From assembly GCF_000613865.1 (NCBI RefSeq), contig NZ_BAJU01000002.1, positions 124,001 through 188,000 on the forward strand: DNA of 64,000 nucleotides. The letters run 5' to 3'. The position numbers and the translations under genes are program-made. The notes beneath the pieces were generated by a model. The model ran no database searches and was not told the DNA's origin. It saw only the letters and a program-made list of their open reading frames with translations. This DNA comes from Acetobacter okinawensis JCM 25146 (GTDB lineage Bacteria; Pseudomonadota; Alphaproteobacteria; Acetobacterales; Acetobacteraceae). Below are positions 2,146 to 42,736 of this stretch, piece after piece (positions within the stretch are counted from its first letter, which is position 1; every line of letters begins with the position of its first letter).

Positions 2146-2383
2146 CATCGTCTTCATAACACTCTGGAGCCTTAGGGTCATCATGAGCGGCTTACTGGCA
2201 GGTCAGTCAGAGCACTGACGGGGCGTCAGCCCCAGTTGCCAACAGATGGTCTTTTAATTCCCGATATATACACAAAATAAATGTATTTTATTCATCGCTT
2301 TTCGCCATTGTTCTATAAAATCTTCTTATTTTGGGAGTAAAAACTCACCCATGCTGTGGGGCAGTCTGGGGCCGTAGCGCAGC

Positions 2384-5300
2384 ATGGTTTTTGGGTTTCA
2401 GGAAGGGTTTGTCGGTTTTATGGGGAATGCAGCAAGCCCGGATCTGGTACAAAGGCTCTATCGCGCCCTTCTCAATACGGCGGACGCGGTTCTTCAGGCG
2501 TCCACTGAACGCGAAATGTGCGACAAGACATGCACCGATCTGGTGTATGATGCACTTTTTCAGGCTGTGTGGATCGGGCGCAAGGATGAATCCGACACGT
2601 TACACGTTCTCTCCTGCATGGGAGCGGGAACGCAGGGCCTTGCTAACCTGAAGTTCAGTTTTGATAACAACCCTCTCCAGTTCCCCGTCGCAGTGGAAGC
2701 GTGGGACCGGCAGACCCTTGTTTATAGTAATGATGAGCTGAACGACCAGAAAAACGCGCCGTGGTATGATTTTCTGTGCCACAACCAATGGCGCTCTGTG
2801 CTGGCTGTGCCTATCTGGCGCGGAGGGGAGCGCTGGGCGGTCATCTCTTTTGTTTCTGCCCAGACCGATATGTTTGATGAGCAGTGCATTGGTTTATGCC
2901 AGAAAGTGTCTGAACTGCTCGGGCATGCGCTGGATAAGCTGGATGGTCAGAAACGGCTGGAAAAACTCCAGAATGAGGAAGCAAGTCGTGCACGCCATGA
3001 CCCGCTGACCGGGCTGCCTAACCGGTTGGCGCTTGAAGAGTATATGCCGCAGGCCATAGCCCGGGCAGTACGTCAGGGCTCGTCAGTGGCTGTGGGCATG
3101 CTGGATCTGGACGATTTCAAGCTGGTTAATGACGGGTATGGGCACGAGGCTGGCGATCGTCTTTTGCAAACACTGGGGCGGCGCCTGCAAGAGCATGTGC
3201 GCCATACGGATTATGTCGCCCGGCTTGGGGGGGATGAGTTTGTCATTATTCTGGAAAATCTCGACCCACTTTTGCAGGTAACACAAGCCACGAAAATTCT
3301 GGACACTCTGCACAAGGCGGTGGAAACGCCTTTCCCCATTTCCAACGATGCCTTTGCCATGGTGGGTATGACGCTGGGGTTGGCACTCTACCCGGTGGAT
3401 GGGGAGGACCCGGACACGCTGTTACGGCGTGCGGATGCGGCTATGTATTTGTCCAAGCAGAACAAATCCACGCGCAAAACCTGGTGGTGCATGGCCAGCA
3501 ATACCCGGCAGTTGCCTGTTGAGGAGAGTGTGGAGCAGGTTGCATTCAATCCCTACGGTGCAGAAGCGGCGGAACTGCTGACCCGGGCCAAGGCTTTCCT
3601 CACCCGCATACGGCAGAATTTTATTGAATGTTTTTATGACAGCCTTGCAAAACTTCCTGATGCCCGCACCGCATTGTCCGCTCTGGCACCAGAGCAGCTT
3701 GAGCGGCTGAAAAGCCAGCAGGCAGCCCATCTGGATTTTCTGTTAGGAGCTCAGACACAGCGACAGGAAATTCTACAACAGGCCCGCCGCCTTGGCGTTA
3801 TTCATACATTATGTGGTATTTCGCCCGCATTGTTGGGAGAAGCTTATAGTATTTACAGGCGTTTGTTGATTGACAGTCTGGATAAAGCTCTGCTGCGTGC
3901 CTATGACCGGTACCATATTCTGCTGACAACAGAAATGCGCTTACAGGATGATAAAGGCGCACAGCTTGAGGCGGGTCAGAAGATCGAGGAGCACTACTTC
4001 TCTCTTTTATCAACCCGTTTGCCGGTAGCGGGTTGTGTCTGGCCAGATGTCAGCGAACAGGGGGTGGAAGCATTGGGCCGCTTGCCTGGCATCCGCGCTG
4101 TTCTGCTTTTTCGTATGAATCCGGCCGGCGAACTGGTGGTTGAACATAGTGGTGGCACCGTCGGTGCGCATTTGACGCAGACATTAAGGGAGAAGATTTC
4201 GCAGCCTGTTGTCAATGCCCAGTCGGTTTTTGGTAATACGGTTACCGGTCTGGCTTGGCGGACACGGCAGCAGCAGAGCTGTGCTTCCTATTCGACTGAC
4301 CCAAATGCCCAGCTCTGGCGCGGATGATGGAGACATTGGGTATCAGCTCTTCCATCAGCATTCCAATTTCCGTGGAGGAGGAACAGGTTGCAGTCGTGCT
4401 GGCATTGTTTGGCGCGTACCCCAATCAGTTTGAAACACAGCGGATGCAGCAGTTTGCCCGCAGCCTGCAGCACCGTTGGGAACAGATGTGGCTGCGGTGC
4501 AGCTTCCAGCGTGGTTCCGGCGTTGCTGAAGAACAGTCCTGTTACATACGCGACAGGCTGTTCAGTGATGGGTTGCGTATGTACGTGCAGCCTATTGTGA
4601 ATTTGCGTACAGGTGCTCTACTGGAGGTGGAAGCTCTTGTCCGTATTCAGGATACAAACGGCAGCATCATAGAGCCAGGGAGTTTTTTGTCCCTGCTAGG
4701 CAGAACGAACTGGACAGGCTGTTCCATATGGGGCTTGAAGACTGCCTGGCCCTGCTGGAGCGCTGGCAGAAGGATGGGCAGGTTATTAACCTTGCCATCA
4801 ATATGCCCCCGACTTACCTGCTGAATGAGGATGGGCCCGCCTGGGTTGCAGGGGCGTTGCAGCGCTACAATATTCAGCCGGAGCAGTTAACGGTTGAACT
4901 GCTGGAAACCCAGATGATCGACCGGCCATACAGGATGAAGCCATCCAGAAGTTCAAGGCGACAGGGGTTAAAATCGCTATTGATGATCTGGGGTCGGGGT
5001 ATAGCAACCTCTTGCGCCTCTCTTCCCTCCCTTTTGATATTATCAAAGTGGATCAGGGGCTTTTGCGCAACATTCGTACAGCTCCTCTTCAGACCTTCAG
5101 TATGGTCAAGTCCGTGCTGGATATGGGGGTGGATTTCCACGAACTGGTTATTGTGGAAGGGTTGGAAGATGATGATGTTATTGAAGCCATTTATCATCTG
5201 GGGTGCCGCTACGGTCAGGGCTATGGCATTTCGCCTCCCATGCCGCCAGAGCAGTTTCCACAATGGTATGACGCATATCGCCTAAAAACACATGCCTGTG

Positions 5301-29246: not shown

Positions 29247-30546
29247 GCCCTTTGTCAACCAGGCTTTTTTGCACCTCTAGCCATATGTAGTACGCGTTAT
29301 AAAAATTTATGAAATCAGAAGGTTCTTTTTTAAGCCATTCTGAAAGTGGTCGGCGTTCATGTGCAATGCGTGTGTAAAGTGTGCTGTACCACAGCAGATT
29401 TGCATGCAGGTCATGGTAGCGTGGTTGGTCAAGATAGTGCTGGAAGGTCTGGTTATAATGACCAAGGAGCGGGTCATCGTAAAAAATAAGCGATAATCTG
29501 GTATTATACACAGCATTGGGGGTTTGTACCGTGTTGGAGTCCAGAATAACGCCGGGCTCACCCGGTAGCCACCCATCGTGGAGCAGGGTATGGCGGGTCA
29601 GGGGGTCATGGTAGAGGGCATGTAGGTCACCCGGATCATGCCGTCTGGTACGATCGAGCAGGTTGAGAACTTCATTTTTGGGCACAGGGAAGGTCAGCGC
29701 GGCCTTGAGAATAAACTGATGAACCGGTAAGTCCCGCCAGAAATCTGCTGCCGCGAGCGCGTTGTGGATAAGGTGGTTGCAGTTATCCTGTAAAACATTG
29801 GTCTCAAATGTTCCGGGACCATGTTGGTACAAAGCGTTGCGTGTGTTCAGGAAGTCTACAATCTGTGTCATCTGGGTGGCTGTTACAGGCAGACGTGCGC
29901 AATAGCGTGCGCGCCCGTAACTGACTGCATAATCCGTGCCGATCGAGACTTCATATTTCCAGTCTTCGGCCGGGGTGCCGGGTGGTTTGTCTGCCAAAGC
30001 CCAGTCCCGAAAAGAGATGGCGCTGTAAAGCCCGTGCTGTTTGGCTGCATTTTGGGTGGCTGTATAAGCCTCCCGCGTCAATCCCTCGTCTGGTTTGAGA
30101 ATGCCATTATAAAAAAACATACGTCCGGAGACGCCAACCCAGTTTGCGTTGACAAAATGGGCGTTCATGCTCACGCCGGTTTCGCCCTGAGGGCAGGTTT
30201 TCAGTATGGGGTAGGTGGATGTGGGGTCAAGGCAGGCTCCATGGAGGAACAGTACGGCATGCCCTCCCGGCCCCCCTGCTATGTCTGCGCCAAAACCGGG
30301 CTTTTTGGAAATCTGGGAAACTGCGCAAAGTTCAGCCCACTGTGGGAAAAGGGCGTTGTAGGCGCTTTCCTGCTTTAATGGCCCCGGAGTGCGAAAGTCC
30401 GGCGGCGTGCAGCCTGCAAACGCAAATACGGCAAGCAACAGAAGGATGACAGTTTGTAAGGAGACACAAAAATCTCGAATTCCTAGAGCAACAACAACGC
30501 TACATAGCAGACGTTGGCTTGTCCCGCAGGCTAATGCAAGCCACAT
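29125..30546 (-). CDS. Large lipoprotein of unknown function with a possible permuted papain-like site
   Basis: 473 aa from ATG 30546. A hydrophobic stretch QTVILLLLAVFAFAGC ends in a lipobox (Cys46), so the mature protein should be membrane-anchored. Two segments are suggestive: GGPGGHAVLFLHGACLD (His96) and VLQDNCNHLIHNAL (Cys256). Histidine before an 'NCxH' cysteine is the order seen in circularly permuted NlpC/P60-like (LRAT/PPPDE) folds; this is inference. The last 40 residues, rich in Pro, Ala and Gln, overlap the end of the oxidoreductase gene by 122 bases, so the true stop may lie earlier in the cell if a frame error exists. No family recognised. Confidence 0.6.
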   Translation of the reverse strand: MWLALACGTSQRLLCSVVVALGIRDFCVSLQTVILLLLAVFAFAGCTPPDFRTPGPLKQESAYNALFPQWAELCAVSQISKKPGFGADIAGGPGGHAVLFLHGACLDPTSTYPILKTCPQGETGVSMNAHFVNANWVGVSGRMFFYNGILKPDEGLTREAYTATQNAAKQHGLYSAISFRDWALADKPPGTPAEDWKYEVSIGTDYAVSYGRARYCARLPVTATQMTQIVDFLNTRNALYQHGPGTFETNVLQDNCNHLIHNALAAADFWRDLPVHQFILKAALTFPVPKNEVLNLLDRTRRHDPGDLHALYHDPLTRHTLLHDGWLPGEPGVILDSNTVQTPNAVYNTRLSLIFYDDPLLGHYNQTFQHYLDQPRYHDLHANLLWYSTLYTRIAHERRPLSEWLKKEPSDFINFYNAYYIWLEVQKSLVDKGLTLLSAAAPTSSAWPPAPPGTQQEEPARANAQQNPLPEGK

Positions 30547-30927
30547 GGGCGTGCATGGCTAAAAGTGTGAGCTTAGAAAGTGCTTTGCAGTCTGGAACAA
30601 CAGGCCTCTGAACCGAGGGGGTTTCATGGGCCGGGAGGATCATCTCCCATACTATGCGTGGCAGAAGAGGTGGTCGTAAGCTTTCCGGCATCAGGAATGT
30701 TGTCTATATTCAAAGGAATATGGACATATCCCGGATATGCAGCCTGCCCCGAAAAACATTTTGACATCGGAATAATATGCCGCCATCCTTGGCTTAGATC
30801 TGGGAGGTGTCAACGCTGGCATTCGGTCCATAGGGTCATAATAAATATCTACGATTGAAGTCCAATGACGGTCTTCTTGCCTGTGGTGGGCGTGTCTGAC
30901 TGTACAGTCCGGCACTAGGTATTGGTG
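30547..30927. promoter_or_regulatory. Upstream region of the nitrate operon
   Basis: No supported gene in about 380 bases. It separates the unknown lipoprotein from the first nitrate gene and should contain the operon promoter. It holds a 12-bp perfect palindrome close to the start codon and, at 30633-30648, a 5-bp hairpin with a 6-base loop. Confidence 0.5.
30898..30909. promoter_or_regulatory. 12-bp perfect palindrome upstream of the nitrate transporter
   Basis: GACTGTACAGTC is its own reverse complement and ends 18 bases before the ATG at 30928. Its position suits a repressor site or a short RNA hairpin near the ribosome-binding region. The binding protein cannot be named from sequence alone. 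Confidence 0.35.
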
Positions 30928-32148
30928 ATGGATAAGGGTTTTCTCAAAGCAGGTAATCCCCGCACTCTTCTTGCCGCTTTTCTTTATTTTGATGTGTCAT
31001 TCATGGTCTGGGTTCTGCTTGGACCTCTGGGTATAGCCATATCACATGACCTGCACCTGAATCCTGGCCAAAAAGGTCTGCTGGTGGCTATGCCAGTGCT
31101 GGCCGGGGCACTGCTGCGGGTTGTGGCTGGTGCGCTGGTTGACCATTATGGGCCACGTCGTGTTGCCATTGGCATGCAGTCTTTTGTTATTGCGGGTCTT
31201 GCTGCGACGTGGGTTTTGGCACCGCATACATATGTCGGTCTTTTTCCGGTCGCTTTTGTGCTGGGGGTTGCGGGAGCTTCCTTTGCTGTGGCTCTACCCT
31301 TGGCATCTGGCTGGTATCCTCCACAGTATCAGGGCACGGCACTGGGCATTGCCGGAGCGGGTAATTCGGGTACGGCGCTTGCTTCCCTTTTTGCTCCGGG
31401 GCTTGCTGCTCTTTATGGCTGGACCAACGTATTCGGGCTGGCAACCGTGCCGCTTGTTCTGGTGCTGTGCGCCTTTATCTATCTTGCCAAAGAACCACCC
31501 CGCCGCCCGGGTGCTGGTCTGGTGGCATGGTTGCCTGTGTTGAAAAAAGCTGATTGCTGGGCACTCATGTTCTTCTACGGGGTCACTTTTGGTGGTTTTG
31601 TGGGACTGGCCTCGTTTTTAACCATCTATTTTAATGACCAGTACGGACTTTCTCCCGCAATTGCTGGGAGTTGTACTGCGCTGGTTGTATTTGCCGGGTC
31701 TTTTATCCGTCCGCTGGGTGGTGCGTTTGCAGACCGCATTGGCGGGGAGCGGGCGCTGTGCATGCTCTATGGGGCAGCAACAGTTATTTTTGGCCTGATT
31801 GGTCTGGGGCTTCCGACAATCTGGCTCGCGTTTCCTGCATTTTTTATCGGCATGCTTGTGCTGGGTCTGGGCAATGGTGCCGTTTTCCAGCTTGTGCCAA
31901 CACGCTTTCCGCAGCAGGTCGGCATATTGACCGGTCTGGTTGGCATGAGTGGTGGGGTGGGCGGTTTTTACCTTGCGTCCTCTCTGGGGGCCGCACGGCA
32001 GGCTACAGGTTCTTATAACCTGGGCTTTATGGCCTTTGCCGGCATTGCCCTGCTGGCGCTTGTCTGTGTCTCCCTTTGCCGCAAAAGCTGGAAAAAAACA
32101 GCCAGTGCGCAGGGGGCTGATCCAGCCAGCTTTTCCGCCATTTCCTGA
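30928..32148 (+). CDS. Nitrate/nitrite transporter, major facilitator superfamily (NarK/NasA type)
   Basis: Twelve-helix inner-membrane protein of about 406 aa that brings nitrate into the cell. The nitrate-porter signatures are clear: an N-terminal WVLLGPLG segment, GNSGTALASLFAPGLA in the first half and GMSGGVGGFYLASSLG in the second, with arginines in LLRVVAGALVDHYGPRR and SFIRPLGGAFADRIGG. ATG 30928 is preferred over TTG 30922. It opens the assimilatory nitrate operon, followed after 27 bases by an outer-membrane porin. Confidence 0.9.
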   Translation: MDKGFLKAGNPRTLLAAFLYFDVSFMVWVLLGPLGIAISHDLHLNPGQKGLLVAMPVLAGALLRVVAGALVDHYGPRRVAIGMQSFVIAGLAATWVLAPHTYVGLFPVAFVLGVAGASFAVALPLASGWYPPQYQGTALGIAGAGNSGTALASLFAPGLAALYGWTNVFGLATVPLVLVLCAFIYLAKEPPRRPGAGLVAWLPVLKKADCWALMFFYGVTFGGFVGLASFLTIYFNDQYGLSPAIAGSCTALVVFAGSFIRPLGGAFADRIGGERALCMLYGAATVIFGLIGLGLPTIWLAFPAFFIGMLVLGLGNGAVFQLVPTRFPQQVGILTGLVGMSGGVGGFYLASSLGAARQATGSYNLGFMAFAGIALLALVCVSLCRKSWKKTASAQGADPASFSAIS

Positions 32149-32175
32149 TTTCCTTTCAGACACGGATTATAACAC

Positions 32176-33858
32176 GTGACCTTGAACAAGATCCACGTGC
32201 GCTCCAGATGCGCTCTTTTTCGTAGCCTGTCCGTCTCGGCTCCTGCGGTTGTACTGGTGGGTATTGTGATTACGCACCCAGCTTTGGCCCAGGTGGCCAG
32301 TTCCTCAACTTCTACCGCGCCTCAGACCGCCGGCCAGACCATTATGGCGGTGGAGAAAAAAAATACGCTCAAACCGGCTAAAACTGCGGAACGTCCCCCT
32401 CATACACAGGATTGGGGGGTGTTCAACGCCGGTAAACAGGCTGCCAGCGGTTTTGGAACAGTAGCGGGTTTTGGGCAGGCCCGCTGGGCGGAGGACTGGA
32501 GCGATCTTGCCAGCGTTCCGACCGAAAAAAGGAACAAGGACTGGTTCAACCGCCTTAAATATATACGCCTGAATACTACAGGCAGTATCTGGCTCTCCCT
32601 GAACGGGGAGGAGCGTTTGCGTTATGTGTTTGAAAATCAGCCGACAATGGGCACAGCGGGTAAGACCAACGCCAATCGCGTGCTGTTGCGCAACATGTAC
32701 GGTGCTGACCTGCATCTGGGGGAGCATGTACGTGCCTACGCGGAGTTTTTATGGGGTGTGGCCGGGGGCTCCAATTACTATGGGTATCAGGCGGGCACGC
32801 AGCGCGAAAGGCTGGACCTGCAACAGGGTATTCTGGAAGTAAAAGGGCAGTTGCTTGGGGCCAGAATGGGTGTCATTGGCGGGCGGCAGGTGTTTGTGGA
32901 TGCTCCTGTTTCCATGCAATCTGCGCGGGACCTGCCAAACGTGCAGCAGACATGGGATGGTGTGCGCGGTTACGCGGTGTGGAAATCTTTTCGTGTTGAT
33001 CTGTTTGATTTTATGCAGACCAATAAACAGCCGATTGATGTTTTTTCAGACGGTACCAGTTATAATGCCCGCATGTATGGGGCTTATACATCGACCGCTT
33101 TGCCGTCTTTTTCCTTAATGGGACAAAAAAGCCAGATTTTTGCGGATGTTTTTTTTATTGGTTATCTGTTTAATGGGGCCAATGCGGCGCTGCCCCTTGC
33201 TCAGGCTGGCAAAACGGAGGCGGGCTCAACCCGCAGGGACAATATAGGGGGGCGCTTGTGGGGAAATGCCGGTCCGTTTGATGTTAGTCTGACCGGGGTT
33301 TTTCAGGGAGGGGAGTTCCGCCCTGCGCAAAAAGCGGCGCAGAGCCGTCCTGTCCGTGCATTTGCCGTGAACGGCAGTATAAGCTGGAATGCAAAAAACC
33401 TGCCAGGAAAACCCTCTTTTGGTATTCAGGCAGATGTATTTTCTGGCGGGAATTATCATAGCCAGAATGGTGCGGTGGGGACTTTTGCAACGCCTTATGT
33501 TGCACTCCCCTATTATAATGACGTCACACTTGCCCTGACATCGCAGAACCTTGTGGGGGTTGGTCCACTGCTTACGGCAGCACCCCGGCCCAATCTGCGC
33601 CTGAGGCTCCACGTGCCTGCCTTCTGGCGGGAAAGCACGCAGGATGCCGTGTACGGCACGGGCAAAACCTATGCCTGGCGTGATAATCTGCATGGGGGTT
33701 TTGTTGGCGTTTCTCCCCAGGCACAGATTGCATGGAGCTTTGCGCCACACTGGACATGGACGCACGATTTTGCCGGCTTTGCAGCGTCTCACGGTATGCA
33801 TGATGCGGGTGCCAAAAGTGGTATGTTTTACATGCAGACAATGGAATTCAAATTCTGA
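32176..33858 (+). CDS. Alginate-export-family outer-membrane porin associated with nitrate assimilation
   Basis: 560 aa with a leader ending near THPALAQ and a long beta-barrel that ends MFYMQTMEFKF with terminal Phe. The block WLSLNGEERLRYVFENQPTMG, followed by RVLLRNMYGADLHLGEHVRA, and GRQVFVDAPVSMQSARDLPN match the alginate-export (AlgE-like) porin family, whose members are often not linked to alginate. Located between the nitrate transporter and nitrite reductase, it most likely lets nitrate or nitrite cross the outer membrane. It starts with GTG at 32176. Confidence 0.8.
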   Translation: MTLNKIHVRSRCALFRSLSVSAPAVVLVGIVITHPALAQVASSSTSTAPQTAGQTIMAVEKKNTLKPAKTAERPPHTQDWGVFNAGKQAASGFGTVAGFGQARWAEDWSDLASVPTEKRNKDWFNRLKYIRLNTTGSIWLSLNGEERLRYVFENQPTMGTAGKTNANRVLLRNMYGADLHLGEHVRAYAEFLWGVAGGSNYYGYQAGTQRERLDLQQGILEVKGQLLGARMGVIGGRQVFVDAPVSMQSARDLPNVQQTWDGVRGYAVWKSFRVDLFDFMQTNKQPIDVFSDGTSYNARMYGAYTSTALPSFSLMGQKSQIFADVFFIGYLFNGANAALPLAQAGKTEAGSTRRDNIGGRLWGNAGPFDVSLTGVFQGGEFRPAQKAAQSRPVRAFAVNGSISWNAKNLPGKPSFGIQADVFSGGNYHSQNGAVGTFATPYVALPYYNDVTLALTSQNLVGVGPLLTAAPRPNLRLRLHVPAFWRESTQDAVYGTGKTYAWRDNLHGGFVGVSPQAQIAWSFAPHWTWTHDFAGFAASHGMHDAGAKSGMFYMQTMEFKF

Positions 33859-33972
33859 CCGATGATATCTGTATCTGGTGCGAACGAGAGGGGATGTCAG
33901 ACATAATTACGATATCTGGTTCCCTATTGATTTTATTTCGTGTAAGGAACTATTGAGAAGCATCCCATCAAA

Positions 33973-34073
33973 GTTACCGTCAACGGCGGCGGTAACAGGA
34001 TAACGGCGCGTGATTCAGGGGCCAACGGTGGCTCCTTGGCCTGAACAGGGCGCATTTGCATATACTGCAAATG
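33973..34073 (+). promoter_or_regulatory. Three consecutive hairpins in the leader upstream of nirB: candidate NasT-responsive element
   Basis: Three exact inverted repeats stand in a row. GTTACCG/CGGTAAC spans 33973-33996 with a 10-base loop. GGCCAA/TTGGCC spans 34020-34041 with a 10-base loop. CATTTGCA/TGCAAATG spans 34053-34073 with a 5-base loop. They lie in a 392-base gap within the nitrate operon, before the AGGAG site of the nitrite-reductase gene. The same operon encodes NasT, an ANTAR RNA-binding antiterminator, whose known targets are paired hairpins in leaders. The loops do not show an obvious ANTAR hexaloop, so the link is inference. The rest of 33859-34250 has no convincing gene. 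Confidence 0.45.
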
Positions 34074-34250
34074 CAGGAACCGTTACAAAATGGTGCAGTG
34101 TTTTACCCATCCTGCTTTCCATTATTTGGATTTTTCTGTTCTGTGCAGGATTTTTCCTGATCTGGCGTTACAGCCTGTCTGGCACGCACGCACCTGCTCA
34201 TGCGCAGGCTTTGCCCCCCTCTACCCCCAAATTGCGAGGAGTTACGAACC

Positions 34251-37148
34251 ATGACCACTACCGGCACTCTTGTTATCATCGGCAATGGCATGGTGGGGCA
34301 CTATTGTGCCGAACAGCTGGTTATGCACGGTCTACATGAACATTATGCCATTCATGTATTTGGTGAGGAGTTGCACGATGCATATGACCGCGTGCACCTG
34401 ACTGATTACATGACCGGTCAGGACGCGCTGGCCCTGCGCCTGCACGCGGAGGATTTTCATGCCGCGCATGGTATTACGCTGCACCGGGGTGTGCGCGTAA
34501 CGGGGATCGACCGTCAGGCGCGTGTGGTGCAGAGCACGGAAGGTACCTTGCCCTACACAACCCTGATTATGGCTACTGGCTCCCTGCCCTTTGTACCTCC
34601 CGTTCCCGGCAATACCGGCACGGCAGGGCTTGTCTACCGTAATCTGGAGGATCTGGACTTTATACGCGCCGCTGCACAAGGGGCGCGGCATGGCACGGTT
34701 ATAGGGGGAGGGTTGCTGGGGCTGGAGGCAGCCAATGCCTTGCGCATACTAGGCCTGCACACCAGCGTTATCCAGCTTGGGGGACACCTGATGTCCGCTC
34801 AGTTGGATAAGGAAGGCGGAGATGCCCTGAAATGCCGGATTGAGGCGCTGGGCATTGATGTGCGCACATCGCATGCGACAAAACAGATTGTGCCCGGGCA
34901 GAACTGCCGACATCGCCTGATTTTTGCGGACGACACAACTCTTGAGACGGATATGGTGGTGTTCTCCGCCGGTATTCGTCCGCAGGACCAACTGGGCCGC
35001 GACTGCGGTCTGGAGGTGGCTGCGCGTGGAGGCATTGTGATTGACCAAAGCTGCCGCACGTCAGACCCAGCTATTTTTGCCATTGGGGAATGTGCGTCCT
35101 GGCAGGAGCAGGTTTTTGGTCTGGTTGCACCGGGTTACGCCATGGCCCGTACGGTCGCTGCTATTCTGGCGGGCGAGGAAGCCGCGTTTACCGGTGCGGA
35201 TATGTCCACCAAGCTGAAATTGCAGGGTGTGGATGTTGGCTCCATTGGAGATGCCTATGGCGCCACGCCGGGGAGCAGAAGTTACCGCTTTATTGGTGAA
35301 GCAGATGGCACTTACCGACGCCTTGTGCTGTCGGGTGATGGTACGCAGGTGCTCGGTGCCGTGCTTGTGGGCGATAATTCCTATTACGATACCATTCTCC
35401 AATATGTGCAGAATGCCATTAAACCCCCGGCTGATCCGGCGGTGCTGATTCTGCCACGTGGAGAAGGGGCAGAACTGTTAGGCGCAGATGCCCTACCCGA
35501 TACGGCCATGGTCTGCTCATGCCATAATGTGACCAAAGGCGCGATCTGCGCGACCATAGATGCCGGGTGCACGGACCTTGCAGAGCTTAAGCAGACCACA
35601 AAAGCCAGCACGGGGTGTGGAGGCTGCGCAGCTCTTTTGAAAAGTGTTTTTGAAACAGAGCTGGAAGGCAGGGGTATTACGGTTGATCGTAGCCTGTGCG
35701 AGCATTTTTCCCACACCCGGCAGGAGCTGTATTCGCTCGTCAGGGTGCATGGTATCCAGACATTTGAAGAGCTGATGCAGCAGTACGGCAATGGTGGTCT
35801 GGGGTGTGACATCTGCAAACCTGCCGTTGGCTCCATTCTGGCTTCTGCATGGAATAAACCCATAACGGACCCGCTGTATATTCCTTTGCAGGACACGAAC
35901 GATACGTTCATGGCCAATATGCAAAAGAATGGCACCTATTCGGTTGTGCCGCGCATTGCCGGAGGAGAAATTACACCAGACAAGCTGATTGTGCTTGGTC
36001 AGGTGGCTAAAAAATATGATCTGTACACCAAAATTACCGGTGGACAGAGAATTGACCTGTTCGGTGCACAACTCCACCAGTTGCCGGAAATATGGGGTGA
36101 ACTGCTGGATGCTGGGTTTGAGACAGGGCAAGCCTATGGCAAATCTACCCGTACCGTAAAGTCATGCGTGGGCAGCACATGGTGCCGCTATGGTGTGCAG
36201 GATAGTGTTGGAAAAGCCCTTGATCTGGAAAACAGGTACAAGGGATTGCGCTCGCCTCATAAACTCAAGTTCGCAGTCTCAGGCTGTACGCGTGAATGTG
36301 CAGAGGCACAGAGCAAGGATGTGGGGGTCATCGCAACAGAAAATGGCTGGAACCTCTATGTTTGTGGCAATGGCGGCATGCGGCCGCGCCATGCGGAACT
36401 GTTTGCAACGGACATAGATTCTCAAACACTGATAAAATATATAGATCGTTTTCTCATGTTCTATATCCGCACAGCCGACAGGCTTCAGAGGACTTCTGTC
36501 TGGCGTGAAAATCTTGAGGGTGGTCTGGATTATCTTAAAGACGTTATCATCAACGATAGTCTTGGTATTGCAGAGGAACTGGAGCGCCAGATGCAACTGG
36601 TGGTGGACCGCTACCATTGCGAATGGCGTGATGCGCTGAGCGATAAAGATAAACTCAAGCGGTTCCGCACATTTGTAAACGATGCACGCCCAGACCCCAA
36701 TATTCGTACCGAGGCTGAGCGCGATCAGGTCAAGCCTGCGGCCAACCTGCCTGAGAAAGGAACTTCTGTAGGTCCAAAGGCATGGACGGAGCTATGTGCA
36801 CAAACCGATCTTGTAGAAAAATCTGGTGTGGTTGCATGGTGTGAGGGCAATCAGGTCGCCCTGTTCTATGTGCCACAGACGCAGGATAAACCTGCATGTG
36901 TGTACGCGCTGGATAACCATGACCCGTTTTCGCATGCCAATATTATTGGTCGTGGACTCATAGGGGAGATCAGGGGGCAGCGCGTTGTGGCATCTCCGTT
37001 GTATAAGCAGCATTTCCGTCTGGAAGATGGACAGTGTCTGGAGGATGCTGCGGTAAGGCTGCGCACATGGGATGCACGATTGGTTGAGGGCAAGGTGCAA
37101 ATCAGGGTACGGGCCGATCAGGGCGTACCAGAATTGACAACTGCCTGA
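34251..37148 (+). CDS. nirB: Assimilatory nitrite reductase, NirB-NirD fusion
   Basis: Reduces nitrite to ammonia with NAD(P)H in the cytoplasm. About 965 aa. Residues 1-400 form the FAD/NAD domain (VIIGNGMVGHYCAEQL, IGGGLLGLEAANALR). A BFD-like [2Fe-2S] segment follows (VCSCHNVTKGAI with STGCGGC). The siroheme-[4Fe-4S] half carries SCVGSTWCRYGVQDS and SGCTRECAEAQSKDVG, the four cysteine ligands. The last 120 residues (from about 845) are a complete NirD small subunit: LCAQTDLVEKSGVVAW, ALDNHDPFSHANIIGRGLIG, ASPLYKQHF. NirB and NirD are usually separate, so this is a natural fusion. ATG 34251 follows AGGAG with eight-base spacing. The next gene starts one base after its stop. Confidence 0.93.
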   Translation: MTTTGTLVIIGNGMVGHYCAEQLVMHGLHEHYAIHVFGEELHDAYDRVHLTDYMTGQDALALRLHAEDFHAAHGITLHRGVRVTGIDRQARVVQSTEGTLPYTTLIMATGSLPFVPPVPGNTGTAGLVYRNLEDLDFIRAAAQGARHGTVIGGGLLGLEAANALRILGLHTSVIQLGGHLMSAQLDKEGGDALKCRIEALGIDVRTSHATKQIVPGQNCRHRLIFADDTTLETDMVVFSAGIRPQDQLGRDCGLEVAARGGIVIDQSCRTSDPAIFAIGECASWQEQVFGLVAPGYAMARTVAAILAGEEAAFTGADMSTKLKLQGVDVGSIGDAYGATPGSRSYRFIGEADGTYRRLVLSGDGTQVLGAVLVGDNSYYDTILQYVQNAIKPPADPAVLILPRGEGAELLGADALPDTAMVCSCHNVTKGAICATIDAGCTDLAELKQTTKASTGCGGCAALLKSVFETELEGRGITVDRSLCEHFSHTRQELYSLVRVHGIQTFEELMQQYGNGGLGCDICKPAVGSILASAWNKPITDPLYIPLQDTNDTFMANMQKNGTYSVVPRIAGGEITPDKLIVLGQVAKKYDLYTKITGGQRIDLFGAQLHQLPEIWGELLDAGFETGQAYGKSTRTVKSCVGSTWCRYGVQDSVGKALDLENRYKGLRSPHKLKFAVSGCTRECAEAQSKDVGVIATENGWNLYVCGNGGMRPRHAELFATDIDSQTLIKYIDRFLMFYIRTADRLQRTSVWRENLEGGLDYLKDVIINDSLGIAEELERQMQLVVDRYHCEWRDALSDKDKLKRFRTFVNDARPDPNIRTEAERDQVKPAANLPEKGTSVGPKAWTELCAQTDLVEKSGVVAWCEGNQVALFYVPQTQDKPACVYALDNHDPFSHANIIGRGLIGEIRGQRVVASPLYKQHFRLEDGQCLEDAAVRLRTWDARLVEGKVQIRVRADQGVPELTTA

Positions 37149-37149
37149 C

Positions 37150-40100
37150 GTGGCTATGCCTGAATCCGAATTCCGTTCTGTCTGCCCGTATTGTGGTGTA
37201 GGGTGCGGTATTATTCTGGACGTTAGGGATGGAAAAATTGGCAGGGTGCGCGGGGATGCAGCGCACCCTGCCAACGCCGGTCGCCTGTGCACCAAGGGCA
37301 GTTCGTGTGATAAACCGCTCTATGCACAGGAGCGCTTAAAAACAGCAATGCTGCGCCCGCTGCGCACAGCAGAGGCCATAACGGTTCCAGTTGAACAGGC
37401 GATTGCAGCAACAGCGAAAAGATTACGTAAGATTCTGGAGGCGTATGGACCAGATGCCATTTCTTTTTATGTTTCTGGTCAAATGTCGATGGAGGCGCAG
37501 TATCTTATTAACAAATTGGCAAAAGGATATATCAGAAGCCAGTATATAGAATCTAACTCCCGCTTGTGCATGGCAGCGGCTGGGACGGGGTATAAGCTCT
37601 CGCTCGGGGCAGATGCACCACCGGGCAGTTATGAGGATATTGACTGTACCAATCTGTTTTTTGTTATCGGCTCCAATATGGCCGATTGTCACCCTATCCT
37701 GTTCCTGCGCCTGATGGACCGCAAGCGCTCGGGCGCAAAGCTGATTGTTGTAGACCCACGCAGAACAGCTACAGCGGAAAAAGCTGACCTTTACCTGCCC
37801 ATACGACCGGGAACAGACCTTGCTCTGCTGAATGGCATTTTGCATATTCTCGTTGAAAATAACGCCATAGATCAAGAATTTATTGCACAGGCAACGCGTG
37901 AATGGCAGGTTATGCCTGCTTTTCTTGCTGAGTATACACCCCACCATGTTGCGCAGATAACGGGCCTGCCCGCGGCGGATATTCTGACAGCCGCACATTG
38001 GATTGCACAGGCCGGAGAGTGGATGAGCCTTTGGACCATGGGGCTGAACCAGAGTGTGGCAGGAACGTGGAATGCCAACGCATTGTGCAATCTGCACCTT
38101 GCAACTGGCACTCTTTGCAAACCTGGTTGCGGTCCGTTTTCCCTGACCGGGCAGCCCAATGCCATGGGTGGGCGCGAAATGGGCTACATGGGGCCAGGTT
38201 TGCCCGGCCAGCGCAGCGCGCTGGTTGCTGAAGATCGAGCGTTTGTGGAGAGCCAGTGGCGCCTCCCCCCCGGCACCTTGCGTGATGTGGGGGGCAATGG
38301 TGCAATTGCCATGTTCGGTGCCATGGAAGAAGGGAAGATCAAAGCCTGCTGGATTATCTGCACCAATCCCGTGGCAACAGTCGCTAACCGTGCGCATGTT
38401 ATTCGGGCTTTGGAAAAAGCGGATTACGTGGTTGTGCAGGATGCTTTTGCCGACAGTGAAACCGCAAAATTTGCTGATACAGTGCTCCCCGCCGCCTTAT
38501 GGGCGGAAGCGGATGGTGTGCAGGTCAATTCCGACCGGACCATGACGCTGGCACAAAAGGCTGTTGCTCCACCGGGGGAGGCACTGGCCGATTGGGAACT
38601 GATAGCCCGTGTTGCCTGTGCAATGGGGTTTGAGGAGGGTTTTTCCTTTACCTCTGCTGCCGATGTGTTTGCCGAGGCCAGCAGGTTTACAAACCCCAAA
38701 ACCGGTTATGATTGTGCTGGCGTGACTTATGAACGTCTGCGTCAGGGTCCGGTGCAGTGGCCTGCGCCTGTGGGTGATGTACAGGCCCGCCATCCGGTGC
38801 GCTATGTGCCTGCGGGGCAGGAGTTGCCGGTTTTTCCTACCCCGGATGGGCGTGCGATTTTTTATGCACGGCCATGGATGCGGCCGCAGGAATGGCCAGA
38901 TGAGCAGTTCCCTTTTGTGCTCAACAGTGGCCGATTACAACACCAGTGGCACACCCTGACCAAAACGGGCCGTGTTGCCAGTCTTAACCGCCTGAACCCC
39001 GGTCCGTTTGTGGAAGTGTCTTTGCAGGATGCCCAGTCCCTTGGGTTACAGGCCGGTGATCAGGTTAAGGTCACCTCCCGGCGTGGACATCTGGTTCTGC
39101 CTGCTCAGGTCAGTGATCGTGTGCAGGCAGGGCAATGTTTTGCACCATTCCACTGGAATGACCGCTTTGGCCCGGACATGGCCGTTAACGCGGTAACTGC
39201 GGACGACGTGGACCCGCTCTCTCTTCAGCCGGGCTTCAAGCTCTGTGCCGTTAGGTTGGAGCGGGTTGCGCCCGCTGCGTCCGTCTCACCTCCAACCGGT
39301 CAGGAAGAAGGAAGAGCCCCTATGCCGCTTGATACCCTGATACGCCATTTTGCTCTGGATGAACCTGCTCTTCAGCCAGAGTTGCCTGAACAGAGCAGAA
39401 TATGGCTGAAGGGTTTTCTGGAAGGGTTGCGTATGGTGCCGCCGCAACCCGGTATGGTGCCAGATGTACCAGCTAACGCACCCTTGCCAACTGGTGTGCG
39501 GAGTTATGTGAGCGGTTTGCTGGCAGGGTTGTACAGCCGCGTGGGGGAAGGAGCGATTCAGCCTGTGCCGCAGGCGGCCCTTGTGGGGCGGCAGGCGATA
39601 AGGGTCTGGTGGGCATCGCAGACGGGACGTGCGGAGGCTCTGGCCGCCACTGTTGCATCATGGTTGCGTGAGGCAGGGTACGTGGTGGAACTTGCCTGTC
39701 TGGACGGTTGTAAAGATGCGGATTTTGGGCAGGGTAAGGCGATTTTTGTTGTCTCCACGTTTGGGGATGGAGACCCGCCAGACTGCGCAACATCGTTTTG
39801 GGATATTCTGCGAGCCCGCAAGGATGCCCTGAATGATCTGTCCTGTGCTGTTCTGGCTTTGGGGGATTCCTCCTATGCGAGTTTCTGCGGTTTTGGGCGC
39901 GCGCTTGATGAGCGTTTACAAGAACTTGGCGCGCATATGATAATGCCGCGTATGGATTGCGAGCCTGATTTTGAGGATACGGTAGAAGTCTGGCGTGGTC
40001 AGTTGTTGAGTGTGCTGGACAAGGCATCCACCTCTTCTGCAATGCCAGCCGCGGGTGGGGTGGCAACTGTTCCAGCTGAACCCAGAGTTGGCACAAGGGA

Positions 40101-41124
40101 CGCGCCGGTTATTGCCCGTCTGGTGCTGAATGAGCGCTTGTGTCAGGGCGCTGCCAGTAAGGATACACGCCGCATTGGTCTGGACCTGGGTAAAAGTGCT
40201 CTGGACTGGAGGCCGGGTGATGCACTGGGTATCTGGCCATGCAACGCCATAGAGGTGGTCAAAATTACGCTGGCAGCCCTGAACCTGCCGGAGGATACAC
40301 CCGTCACACTCAAGGGAGCGGGCACTGTGGGGTTGCATGATGCCCTGTTGCGGCACTTCGACCTGGCGCGGCCCAACCCCGCAATGCTGCATGCATTGGG
40401 CAGAACCGAAGGTGGTTACCTGCCAGAACTGTTGTCGAGCGCAAGGCTTGCCGTCACCGCACAGGACGTGCCGTCCCTGTTCCGCAGGATGCAGCCCCGG
40501 CTTTATTCCACGGCATCTTCTCCTCTGGTATCGGGGCGGGTGGTGGAGTTGACTGTTGGCATCAATAACGACCCTTGGCCGGGAGTGTGCACAAACTGGC
40601 TTGCCGGGTTGCCTGCCGGGGCGGATGTGCCTGTTTTTGTTCAGCCGACCACCCACTTCCGTTTGCCTGCCGATAACGGGATGGATGTGATTATGATCGG
40701 CCCGGGCACAGGGGTTGCCCCGTTCCGTGGTTTTTTACAGGAGCGCGAAGCCTGCGGGGCTACAGGGCGGAACTGGCTGTTTTTTGGTGAGCAGCACGCG
40801 CAGGAGAGTTTTTACTACCAGACGGAGCTGACCCATTTTGTGCAAAACGGGTGCCTGACACGGCTGGATACCGCGTTCTCGCGCGATCAGCCCAAGCGGA
40901 TATACGTGCAGGACCGCATGGAAGAGGCGGGTGCAGAACTCTGGAACTGGTTGCAGGCAGGGGCTTTCCTTTATATCTGTGGAGATGCGGCGCGTATGGC
41001 GCGTGATGTGGATGCCGCATTGCGCCGGATTGTTGCGCGGCATGGGGATATGCCTGCAAGTCAGGCTGATGAGTATGTGGCCGGACTGACCAGAGGTGGG
41101 CGTTACCTGCGAGATATTTATTAA
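37150..41124 (+). CDS. nasA: Assimilatory nitrate reductase fused to a CysJ-like flavoprotein reductase
   Basis: Single 1324-residue chain. The first 700 residues are a molybdopterin-guanine-dinucleotide nitrate reductase with an N-terminal [4Fe-4S] site (CPYCGVGCG, then GRLCTKG) and NasA motifs (SNSRLCMAAAGTGYK, LTGQPNAMGGREMGYM). After a linker come a flavodoxin domain (about 815-960; WWASQTGRAEALA, STFGDGDPPD), an FAD domain (RLYSTASSP) and an NADPH domain (GPGTGVAPFRGFLQER, LYICGDAARM) ending RYLRDIY, as in sulfite-reductase flavoproteins. The protein can thus take electrons directly from NADPH without a separate NasB or ferredoxin. Start is GTG 37150 or ATG 37156. Its last base overlaps nasT (TAATGG). 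Confidence 0.93.
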   Translation: MAMPESEFRSVCPYCGVGCGIILDVRDGKIGRVRGDAAHPANAGRLCTKGSSCDKPLYAQERLKTAMLRPLRTAEAITVPVEQAIAATAKRLRKILEAYGPDAISFYVSGQMSMEAQYLINKLAKGYIRSQYIESNSRLCMAAAGTGYKLSLGADAPPGSYEDIDCTNLFFVIGSNMADCHPILFLRLMDRKRSGAKLIVVDPRRTATAEKADLYLPIRPGTDLALLNGILHILVENNAIDQEFIAQATREWQVMPAFLAEYTPHHVAQITGLPAADILTAAHWIAQAGEWMSLWTMGLNQSVAGTWNANALCNLHLATGTLCKPGCGPFSLTGQPNAMGGREMGYMGPGLPGQRSALVAEDRAFVESQWRLPPGTLRDVGGNGAIAMFGAMEEGKIKACWIICTNPVATVANRAHVIRALEKADYVVVQDAFADSETAKFADTVLPAALWAEADGVQVNSDRTMTLAQKAVAPPGEALADWELIARVACAMGFEEGFSFTSAADVFAEASRFTNPKTGYDCAGVTYERLRQGPVQWPAPVGDVQARHPVRYVPAGQELPVFPTPDGRAIFYARPWMRPQEWPDEQFPFVLNSGRLQHQWHTLTKTGRVASLNRLNPGPFVEVSLQDAQSLGLQAGDQVKVTSRRGHLVLPAQVSDRVQAGQCFAPFHWNDRFGPDMAVNAVTADDVDPLSLQPGFKLCAVRLERVAPAASVSPPTGQEEGRAPMPLDTLIRHFALDEPALQPELPEQSRIWLKGFLEGLRMVPPQPGMVPDVPANAPLPTGVRSYVSGLLAGLYSRVGEGAIQPVPQAALVGRQAIRVWWASQTGRAEALAATVASWLREAGYVVELACLDGCKDADFGQGKAIFVVSTFGDGDPPDCATSFWDILRARKDALNDLSCAVLALGDSSYASFCGFGRALDERLQELGAHMIMPRMDCEPDFEDTVEVWRGQLLSVLDKASTSSAMPAAGGVATVPAEPRVGTRDAPVIARLVLNERLCQGAASKDTRRIGLDLGKSALDWRPGDALGIWPCNAIEVVKITLAALNLPEDTPVTLKGAGTVGLHDALLRHFDLARPNPAMLHALGRTEGGYLPELLSSARLAVTAQDVPSLFRRMQPRLYSTASSPLVSGRVVELTVGINNDPWPGVCTNWLAGLPAGADVPVFVQPTTHFRLPADNGMDVIMIGPGTGVAPFRGFLQEREACGATGRNWLFFGEQHAQESFYYQTELTHFVQNGCLTRLDTAFSRDQPKRIYVQDRMEEAGAELWNWLQAGAFLYICGDAARMARDVDAALRRIVARHGDMPASQADEYVAGLTRGGRYLRDIY

Positions 41125-41741
41125 TGGATAAACCTGCCTTATCTTCTGCACGCGCACCTATTAATGTTCTGGTCGCGGATGCAAACCCAAGACGGGCAAA
41201 GGCGTTGTCTGATACGCTGCGGGCCGATCCTTCCCTGCACGTTCAGTCTGTCCCCGTTGGCATGAGTCTGATTGATGCCGTGCACCAGTATTACCCCGAT
41301 GTTGTGCTGGTAGATATGGCACGGGCTGACCGGGATGCGCTGGACAGTGTGCGTGCGCTATCCGTCCCCGCGCTGGAAAGGCCGATAGCGCTTTTTGTAG
41401 ATGAAGATGATGTTAATCTGATGGAAACCGCGTTTGATACGGGGGTATGTTCCTATAATGTTTTGGATGCCCCTCCAGACGATGTCAAACCTTTGCTGCG
41501 GGCGGCCATTGCCCTGTACGCACGTTTCCAGCGCACGCGGGCAGAACTGAATGCCGCACAGCAGGAAATTGAAGAGCGGAAAATTATAGATCAGGCAAAA
41601 AAGCTTTTCATGAAAAATGAAAAAACGAATGAGATGCAGGCCTATCGCTGGTTCAGGGGGCGGGCGATGCAGACATCCCAACGTATTGTGACCATTGCCA
41701 TGCAGTACCTTGCCGCTCAACAGAAAAGCGATTCACCATGA
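41124..41741 (+). CDS. nasT: NasT-type antitermination response regulator (REC-ANTAR)
   Basis: 205 aa. An N-terminal receiver-like domain (NVLVADANPRRAKALSDTL; DVVLVDMARADRD with the acceptor-like Asp) is followed by a coiled linker and an ANTAR RNA-binding domain (QQEIEERKIIDQAKKLFMKN to MQTSQRIVTIAMQYL). In known systems NasT prevents termination in the leader of nitrate genes unless held by NasS. Start ATG 41124 overlaps the reductase stop and its end overlaps nasS by four bases (ATGA). Its target is probably one of the leaders in this operon. Confidence 0.9.
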   Translation: MDKPALSSARAPINVLVADANPRRAKALSDTLRADPSLHVQSVPVGMSLIDAVHQYYPDVVLVDMARADRDALDSVRALSVPALERPIALFVDEDDVNLMETAFDTGVCSYNVLDAPPDDVKPLLRAAIALYARFQRTRAELNAAQQEIEERKIIDQAKKLFMKNEKTNEMQAYRWFRGRAMQTSQRIVTIAMQYLAAQQKSDSP

Positions 41742-42736
41742 CCAGACCTCTTCGTATTGGGTTGCTGCGCCTTTCCGATAGTGCGCCAGTTATGATTGCG
41801 CATAATGCGGGCCTGTTTGCACACCATGGTCTTGAGACTGAACTGGTGGTTTCTCCTTCATGGGCAAATATTGCAGATGGTCTGGTATGGAAGACGCTCG
41901 ATGCGGCAATCATGTTTGCCCCTCTGGCGATGATGACGTCTCTGGGACGGCGTGGTCATACGTCCTCCCTAAAACCACTTAAAACACTAAGCTACGGTGG
42001 AAACACGGTCATATTGCGCGGCAACAACCCATTAACGGGTTTGTGGCCCGTGGGGGAGGAGGGGCGGGAGGCTTTTGAAAAATGGCGTGCCACAATTGGC
42101 CGCCGTCCCAGACTTTCGGTCGTGCATATGTATTCAACACATTTTCTGATTCTCAAGCGCTTCTTGTTATCCATAGGTGTTCATATGGAGCATGACGTTG
42201 AGATTCAGGTTATGCCACCACCAGATATTATAAATGCCTTGATTGAAGGGTCAGTGGATGGTGGATGTGTAGGCCCCCCATGGGGAACGGAAGCATGTTT
42301 GCGTAATCTTGCATTTCTGGCCGGGGGATCGGAGACCGTTATGCCACGCCATATTGAAAAACAGCTTGTTGTTCCAGAAGTGGTGTATGACAACCACCAC
42401 GTATGTCATGCACTCGTCAGTGCTTTGGACGATGCAATGCTACCGTTACATGCCGTGGAAAACAGACAGAGTATTGCGCATGATCTGTCTGCATCTCTGG
42501 AAAACAAAGGACTGGACTTACCCGAGGAAGCAACATTGAGGGCTCTAAGTGGTGAGGATATGGCTGAAAGAACGTATTATATGCGTGCTTCCGGCAAAAA
42601 GGAAAATGTTACGTGGATGCTGGATGACATGCTGGGGTTGGACTGGATTGATAAAGAGGAATACAAGATTCTGGAAACAAAATGGAATGCTTCATTGTCG
42701 GTGCCACGTTCTACAAATTTGGAGACTTTTAAGTAA
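41738..42736 (+). CDS. nasS: NasS-type cytoplasmic nitrate/nitrite sensor
   Basis: 332 aa resembling the periplasmic nitrate-binding proteins NrtA/NasF but with no signal peptide (MTRPLRIGLLRLSDSAPVMI). That combination defines NasS, which binds NasT when nitrate is absent and releases it when nitrate binds. Landmarks are AGLFAHHGLETELVVSPSWA, PLAMMTSLGRRGH and GSVDGGCVGPPWG. It is the last gene of the operon. The order nasT-nasS at the 3' end differs from the nasS-nasT order at the 5' end seen in several proteobacteria, and would make the regulators part of the operon they control. Confidence 0.9.
   Translation: MTRPLRIGLLRLSDSAPVMIAHNAGLFAHHGLETELVVSPSWANIADGLVWKTLDAAIMFAPLAMMTSLGRRGHTSSLKPLKTLSYGGNTVILRGNNPLTGLWPVGEEGREAFEKWRATIGRRPRLSVVHMYSTHFLILKRFLLSIGVHMEHDVEIQVMPPPDIINALIEGSVDGGCVGPPWGTEACLRNLAFLAGGSETVMPRHIEKQLVVPEVVYDNHHVCHALVSALDDAMLPLHAVENRQSIAHDLSASLENKGLDLPEEATLRALSGEDMAERTYYMRASGKKENVTWMLDDMLGLDWIDKEEYKILETKWNASLSVPRSTNLETFK

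Follow-up and report, generated by a model that had tools for sequence, protein, structure and literature searches.

A nitrate assimilation operon of Acetobacter okinawensis JCM 25146 carries three exact hairpins in its interior, which raises the question of what they control. All coordinates below are positions in the window, the whole stretch of 64,000 nucleotides (nt) that was analysed. Profile searches with Pfam and NCBIfam gave the operon order narK, porin, nirB-nirD fusion, nasC, nasT and nasS, and the interval between the porin gene and nirB (33859-34250, 392 nt) is the operon's largest gap. A preliminary description of this DNA had placed NasT/NasS at the 3′ end of an operon that they probably control and three hairpins in the large gap before nirBD, and proposed that antitermination by NasT splits the operon into a constitutive transporter and porin and nitrate-dependent enzymes. 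The gap, the hairpins and the regulators, an ANTAR and an NMT1_2 protein following narK-porin-nirBD-nasC, were all found as described. We propose that 33971-34074 is probably a NasT-binding leader RNA within the operon which, together with a second, ancestral leader before narK, gates the operon in series.

A dual-hexaloop leader inside the operon

All three arm pairs are present (33973-33979/33990-33996, 7 bp; 34014-34019/34040-34045, 6 bp; 34052-34060/34066-34074, 9 bp). The first, lengthened to 9 pairs, is P1 of the structure listed here and the third is P4, whereas the second was better regarded as a competitor of P2 and P3 than as a member of the set.

33973-33996, + strand: internal P1, 9 pairs, hexaloop AACGGC (33982-33987) with A1 and G4
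34017-34036, + strand: internal P2, 7 pairs, hexaloop AACGGT (34024-34029) with A1 and G4
34039-34051, + strand: internal P3, a candidate 4-pair hairpin two bases after P2, from single folds
34052-34074, + strand: internal P4, 9 pairs
34014-34045, + strand: alternative hairpin TTCAGG/CCTGAA, overlapping P2 and P3 and competing with both

The presence of A1 and G4, the letters at positions one and four, in both loops is described as the signature of ANTAR target RNAs (PMC3369931, PMC8164766). Two stems with such six-base loops were found in the internal gap (AACGGC/AACGGT) and also at the operon head, upstream of narK (AACGCT/AATGAC), by a search that demanded the A1/G4 letters themselves. The dual-hexaloop score of the internal gap was reached by 0 of 1000 shuffles and the two tiles that hold the motif are the best among the window's 650 tiles; a loose IUPAC hexaloop pattern was uninformative (2 found vs 3.1 expected). 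In the window's version of the P2 loop A1 and U6 are able to pair. The motif, together with its match to the covariance model described below, makes it very probable that the gap holds a NasT target, as had been supposed, and one that is placed to gate nirBD-nasC-nasTS.

Perfect arms of at least 7 bp enclosing loops of 3-12 nt gave four entries in the gap, corresponding to two hairpins with the third-hairpin site counted three times, and 2 of 500 dinucleotide shuffles equalled this. Predicted folding was compared with that of shuffled sequence for 33965-34060 (z -2.24, 4 of 200 shuffles as stable), for the whole porin-nirB gap (z -2.26, 3 of 100) and for 33965-34110 (z -3.20, 0 of 200). The competing fold at 34014-34045 is preferred when 33965-34060 alone or the whole gap is folded, and P2 with P3 is preferred over it when 33965-34110 is folded; by analogy P2 would be the NasT-bound form. 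The internal unit runs in the order P1-P2-P3-P4 and then a start codon at 34090, the same order as in the leaders before narK, and this suggests that the internal element is a whole leader unit and not a bare protein-binding site.

Covariation and a model built without the internal sites

Alignment A1 comprised 33 leaders from upstream of narK (heads), none of them from the clade of the window, chosen by a motif scan 40-75 nt before narK. RNAalifold returned both hexaloop hairpins from these outside-clade heads. In the resulting structure 90.3 % of cells pair and 82 are double-sided, compared with 33.8 in shuffles (0 of 500), and when it was slid out of register at most 60.0 % of cells were paired and 42 double-sided. 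Selection by motif scan favours pairing, and tests of a model on internal sites and new genomes are the more independent evidence. Covariance model R1 was built from A1 and contains no clade and no internal sequence. It finds the internal site in all nine of the places in which the clade carries it (six distinct sequences) at 35.8-41.0 bits, the window's own site scoring 41 bits, and it finds the clade heads at 18.6-29.6 bits, the match in locus L098 ending before the motif of the directed search does. A search of the genome with R1 placed the internal site first, with an expectation value (E) of 5.4e-6, and the head second (E 0.062), the next match having E 1.5; no site in the genome scores better than the internal one. 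The covariance search of both gaps that had been put forward as a check was therefore clear in the internal gap and weak in the head gap.

Among 47 other loci R1 gave 40 matches with E below 1e-5, every one upstream of narK, and the seven loci with no match do not contain the sequence upstream of narK. Thirty-three of the 40 built R1 and four more are copies or near-copies of model rows (L117-L119 and L124, respectively), which leaves L162, L163 and L170 as new; the matches in L162, L163, L164 and L170 sit 52 nt 5′ of narK. Here and below, counts of loci are not counts of independent genomes. A scan of the genus with R1 also gave weak matches (22-27 bits).

The stem that follows P2 and P3 behaves in the same way. 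In alignment A3, with 38 of 44 leaders, P2 and P4 jointly are 93.0 % paired with 139 double-sided cells vs 41.0 in shuffles (0 of 500), and P4 shows double-sided changes at all seven aligned pairs; these P4 statistics hold for the chosen 38, the heads L049, L056, L057, L058, L116 and L123 having been excluded by eye for another layout after P2. P3, with 4 pairs in single folds, is absent from the consensus structure. The covariation is a property of the leader type as a whole, and the six internal sequences of the clade vary little among themselves. The alternative that these are ordinary intergenic hairpins unrelated to NasT would agree with Rfam, which gave no match at gathering score in the whole window and, in 30300-34400 at E up to 5, one unrelated small nucleolar RNA match inside the porin gene and nothing relevant. 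The covariation of the leader type and the success of R1 on sequences left out of it make this alternative highly improbable.

The genome also encodes a cognate protein: nasT (41124-41741) is the single ANTAR protein detected in it (assembly 92.1 % complete). Among named proteins, its nearest counterpart is the NasT of A. okinawensis, at 98 %. In 49 genomes of the genus Acetobacter, 27 have both ANTAR RNA (at E below 1e-3) and protein, 18 have neither, three have the RNA only and one the protein only, a co-occurrence that gives weak support because both are linked in one operon.

A probable second leader before narK

The putative head leader, upstream of the narK start, consists of the following stems.

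30806-30823, + strand: head P1, 6 pairs (three of them G-T), hexaloop AACGCT, within the R1 match 30801-30880
30857-30876, + strand: head P2, hexaloop AATGAC, stem with one T-T mismatch
30879-30891, + strand: candidate head P3, by eye and from single folds
30892-30915, + strand: head P4, ending just 5′ of the narK ribosome site

A directed search found the motif upstream of narK in 45 of 48 loci tried, the distance from the end of the P2 loop to the equivalent of TTG 30922 being 49-68 nt (search confined to 40-75 nt). It failed in L050 and L060, which are of a distant type, and in L124, where narK is separated from its leader by a transposase gene. An earlier best-pair scan had chosen other places in several heads (e.g. 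L045, L056, L062, L116, L122 and L123) and none in L058 and L110, and the directed search was used instead. Given motifs in 45 of 48 heads, the head site is probably ancestral. The proposal that transporter and porin are constitutive is not supported by this result: because the motif (30801-30880) also precedes narK, the internal leader adds a gate rather than freeing the first half of the operon, and narK and the porin gene are probably not constitutive, with one NasT gate to be passed.

A TTTTGACATC-like stretch at 30758-30770, about 45 nt 5′ of head P1, recurs before many narK leaders of acetic acid bacteria (by eye). It resembles a -35 element, and the matching -10 is poor in several leaders.

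A single origin in one Acetobacter clade

One Acetobacter clade acquired the internal leader, and did so once: its distribution over a NirB tree with 40 rows (8 of them carrying it) needs one change, with support 100/100. Of 47 loci with both the porin gene and nirB, 30 have a gap of 16-48 nt between the two, with no room for a leader, and 14 have the internal unit in a gap of 354-392 nt (nine distinct places, some fetched twice). The remaining three are special, with a porin match cut short (L061), a split porin frame (L102) or a transposase gene (L042). The position of nasT-nasS is more widely shared, downstream of nasC in 45 of the 48 loci that have nirB, nasC, nasT and nasS, and upstream in three more distant ones.

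Conservation among six distinct clade sequences spans about 33916-34100 (133 of 180 columns in 33916-34095); it is poor on either flank and returns at the nirB ribosome site. When 33905-34125 was compared by blastn with 397 sampled Acetobacteraceae genomes six matched; most of the query was found only in its own genome, G317 and G242, and the other three matches span 20-28 nt, other clade members being outside the sample. The internal unit had no match in phages, and in a plasmid search (query 33800-34300) an A. ascendens record alone matched. Compared with the clade's own heads and with other heads, the internal unit gave 0.49-0.55 and 0.53-0.83, respectively, for the P1 block and 0.56-0.61 and 0.52-0.67 for the P2-P4 block. 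As it is no closer to the heads of its own clade than to other heads, neither a recent local duplication nor a donor is demonstrable.

Several loci in the collection show rearrangements of the operon. In L042 (G169) an opposite-strand DDE transposase gene (2728-4113) lies between porin and nirB, the gap used by the internal leader in the clade of the window. In L124 (G281) a transposase gene (2363-3199) lies directly 5′ of narK and separates it from the head ANTAR leader (3345-3429). Genome G310 has two nas operons of different lineages (L096 and L113), one with the internal leader and one without, each with its own ANTAR protein. Genome G299 (L100 and L101) has a second nirB copy near the first on the tree, with narK, nasC, nasT and nasS undetected in the surrounding 16 kb. 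In L062, from a plasmid of Acetobacter oryzifermentans, and in L118 nasC is matched over its first 197 residues only, with an IS5-family transposase gene after it; no nasT or nasS was detected within the 20 kb, yet the ANTAR leader at the head (63.4 bits) is retained.

A proposed pair of gates in series

In the working that we propose, NasS would hold NasT when nitrate is lacking. Nitrate would free NasT, and the ANTAR dimer could then bind the P1/P2 loops of each leader and permit downstream expression; both the release of NasT by nitrate and its binding to the leader are argued by analogy with Paracoccus and Bradyrhizobium. The head leader would gate the entire operon and the internal leader would gate nirBD-nasC-nasT-nasS again, such that, with read-through from the head to the enzyme genes, enzymes and regulators would stand behind two serial gates and transporter and porin behind one. 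Such an arrangement would be expected to give a steeper and later enzyme response with feedback through nasT. Expression would be staged, the transporter coming first and the enzymes and regulator after a second pass by the same factor. The internal leader, present in one clade and not seen in its neighbours, would be a natural example of an operon that gained an internal RNA control point, and the 44 distinct natural leader sequences are material on NasT action where no terminator is evident.

Weighing the evidence and the alternatives

Several observations weigh against gating in series, and they concern the head site, the output of the leaders, the start of transcription and the sign of control. 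The head site of the window scores 23.1 bits under R1, at least five window tiles outscore it in the simple hexaloop scan, and the dual-hexaloop score of the head gap was reached by 14 of 1000 shuffles. Matches to R1 of 27-28 bits fall in unrelated places in three other genomes (L167-L169), and matches of 23-25 bits occur in four Acetobacter genomes with no detected ANTAR protein (G319, G329, G117 and G323). The P2 stem of the window head carries a mismatch and head P1 of L098 retains three pairs only. The head site was accepted on its position and its alignment with the clade, not on score. These weaknesses favour the model of the preliminary description, in which the internal leader alone matters and nitrate induces the enzymes, with transporter and porin made constitutively: internal outscores head in all nine clade places under a model that contains neither, and the damaged stems suggest that the head may be decaying, which for the window is possible. 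Nevertheless, neither loop has lost A1 or G4 in any of the five distinct clade heads, both partners have changed in two P2 pairs of L098, L040 and L097 differ on both sides of the outermost P1 pair (by eye), and the spacing of the head to narK agrees with that in relatives. We consider a role for the internal leader alone unlikely.

The second group of observations concerns the output. Under the rule of the scan neither 30547-30927 nor 33859-34250 contained a terminator-like site, other terminator shapes or Rho being possible, and in the heads P4 is not directly followed by four or more T in a row (by eye). Nor was an intrinsic terminator seen to overlap P2 in the manner of the nasF/eut type. 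Of the proposed antitermination, the ANTAR leader before the enzyme genes stood and no classical attenuator was detected. When P2 was forced on or off, the predicted exposure of the ribosome site shifted by more than 0.05 upwards in 10 and downwards in 13 of 44 leaders; head starts were taken at the equivalent of TTG 30922, 6 nt before the likely start, and the interval covered about -20 to -4 of the likely start. In five of the 44 leaders P2 itself was predicted with a probability below 0.5 (the heads L044, L112, L116 and L056, and the internal leader of L002 at 0.30).

One alternative output is translation, with NasT governing initiation just after P4, at narK in the head and at an open reading frame (ORF) coupled to nirB in the internal leader.

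34090-34254, + strand: possible leader ORF of 54 codons, its start lying 3′ of P4 and its stop overlapping the nirB start (ATGA), no more than a suggestive candidate

In the heads P4 adjoins the narK ribosome site (by eye), and the internal unit likewise keeps a start codon after P4. The ORF is open in all nine clade places, with its stop within a few bases of the nirB start, and its alignment has two gaps, of 3 and 18 nt, each a multiple of three. In L044 and L112 P2 does not form in the predicted fold, in which its 5′ flank is paired with the region of the narK start, and a switch in this subgroup is possible on that model. ANTAR RNAs acting on translation have, moreover, been described in actinobacteria (PMC8164766). 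On the other side, the openness of the ORF was equalled in 267 of 5000 column shuffles, 8/8 sequences have a second frame devoid of stops, most of the peptide is not conserved (by eye), no Pfam family matched it at E ≤ 0.001, and the exposure of the ribosome site showed no consistent change over the 44 leaders. We consider control at translation rather unlikely. A separate candidate, the GTG ORF 34010-34339 as a small membrane protein, was dropped on account of an in-frame TAA in six of nine clade sequences (by eye).

The third point is a conserved block directly upstream of the internal leader.

33916-33955, + strand: AT-rich block directly 5′ of internal P1, its two ends reading GTTCC and GGAAC; six clade sequences agree in 33 of its 40 columns

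Upstream of it, in 33856-33915, 10 of 60 columns are invariant in the same six sequences. The block could be a promoter or a binding site, and as a promoter it would make the gates parallel: nirBD-nasC-nasTS would have its own start at about 33.95 kb, narK-porin would be a separate unit, and the two gates would lie on two transcripts. Head P1 likewise follows a conserved TTGAC-containing stretch (by eye), which would suit this arrangement. A sigma-70 scan, however, found no + strand site in 33916-33955 and a single - strand site (33959-33930), with 4 sites in 4 kb where 3.0 were expected; the block is unlike that upstream of the heads (by eye), and the 30 relatives with a gap of 16-48 nt have no room for it, so that the promoter would have to be gained. 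Parallel gates are a reasonable possibility, although we judge them less probable than gates in series.

The sign of control forms the fourth point. In Bradyrhizobium, mutation of nasT is reported to raise the expression of narK-bjgb-flp, which has predicted NasT hairpins, under denitrifying conditions (PMC6759348); aerobically, narK-lacZ is reported to need nasT, being undetectable in a nasT mutant (PMC4724949). In view of these opposite results, the sign of control cannot be read from a predicted hairpin.

A more elaborate form of two serial gates is a speculative and rather improbable extension: an ANTAR unit, perhaps with its own promoter and a translated leader ORF, would have been gained once in the operon, re-gating enzyme and regulator genes in a terminator-free manner through P3/P4 beside a start codon and coupled to nirB through stop and start codons that overlap or abut. 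A switch of this type was not seen in the literature searched.

Genes of the operon

The genes of the operon, on which the naming of the regulators depends, are as follows.

30928-32148, + strand: narK, nitrate/nitrite transporter of the major facilitator superfamily (PF07690, 137 bits)
32176-33858, + strand: porin-like outer-membrane protein, Alginate_exp (PF13372, 102 bits)
34251-37148, + strand: nirB-nirD fusion, assimilatory nitrite reductase (TIGR02374, TIGR02378, PF13806)
37150-41124, + strand: nasC (the name used here), nitrate-reductase-type molybdoprotein with a CysJ-like flavodoxin/FAD/NAD part (Pfam domains above cut-off)
41124-41741, + strand: nasT, ANTAR domain (PF03861, 43.9 bits, cut-off 27.3) and a receiver-like domain below its Pfam cut-off
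41738-42736, + strand: nasS, NMT1_2 nitrate-binding-type sensor (PF13379, 130.2 bits)

For narK the best NCBIfam match is TIGR00886, yet it is below its cut-off, and the start at ATG 30928 was preferred over the TTG 30922 of the mechanical ORF because relatives start at the matching codon. The start codon of nirB is ATG 34251. NCBIfam matches to nasC such as NasC and CysJ are below their cut-offs, and no NCBIfam model above its cut-off names the proteins at 41124-41741 and 41738-42736. These two are named NasT and NasS from their domains and synteny, as putative members of the pair, an ANTAR protein standing beside an NrtA-like sensor within a nitrate locus. The two fusions, nasC with its CysJ-like module and NirB with NirD, pack an electron-transfer chain into two proteins.

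Comparison with known systems

Among the matches listed in the literature search there was no account of NasT leaders in Acetobacter, subscription journals being mostly outside that search. The nas leaders of Paracoccus (P. denitrificans nasA) and Bradyrhizobium (nosR and narK operons) resemble the present system in combining a NasT ANTAR protein and a NasS sensor with a hairpin leader before nitrate genes. In Paracoccus, nitrate-driven dissociation of NasS and NasT and binding of NasT to the leader have been shown (PMC3795266); in P. denitrificans hairpins HI and HII lie 137 and 91 bp before nasA (PMC5424462), and two genes of a single Bradyrhizobium operon, narK and bjgb, are each predicted to be preceded by NasT hairpins (PMC6759348). 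In those descriptions nasTS lie upstream of the genes that they control (Paracoccus) or apart from them (the Bradyrhizobium narK operon), whereas here they lie at the operon 3′ end (PMC4724949). The Acetobacter operon differs further in that its second leader is a single-clade addition and in the extra stems after P2. NasT hairpins before two genes of one operon (Bradyrhizobium, PMC6759348) and multiple ANTAR sites per locus (eut, PMC3369931) are already known, the Enterococcus eut locus having four ANTAR sites (PMC3369931, PMC3369936). The ANTAR targets of Enterococcus eutP/eutG/eutS/eutA, nasF and amiE share the two hairpins, six-base loops and A1 and G4; as described they have intrinsic terminators overlapping P2, whereas here no terminator-like site was found and P4 follows (PMC3369931, PMC3369936). 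Actinobacterial ANTAR RNAs have the dual hexaloop and few have a predicted terminator; about 37 % of those analysed overlap the ribosome site or start codon, whereas here P2 is separated from the ribosome site by P4, and in a mycobacterial case translation is repressed (PMC8164766).

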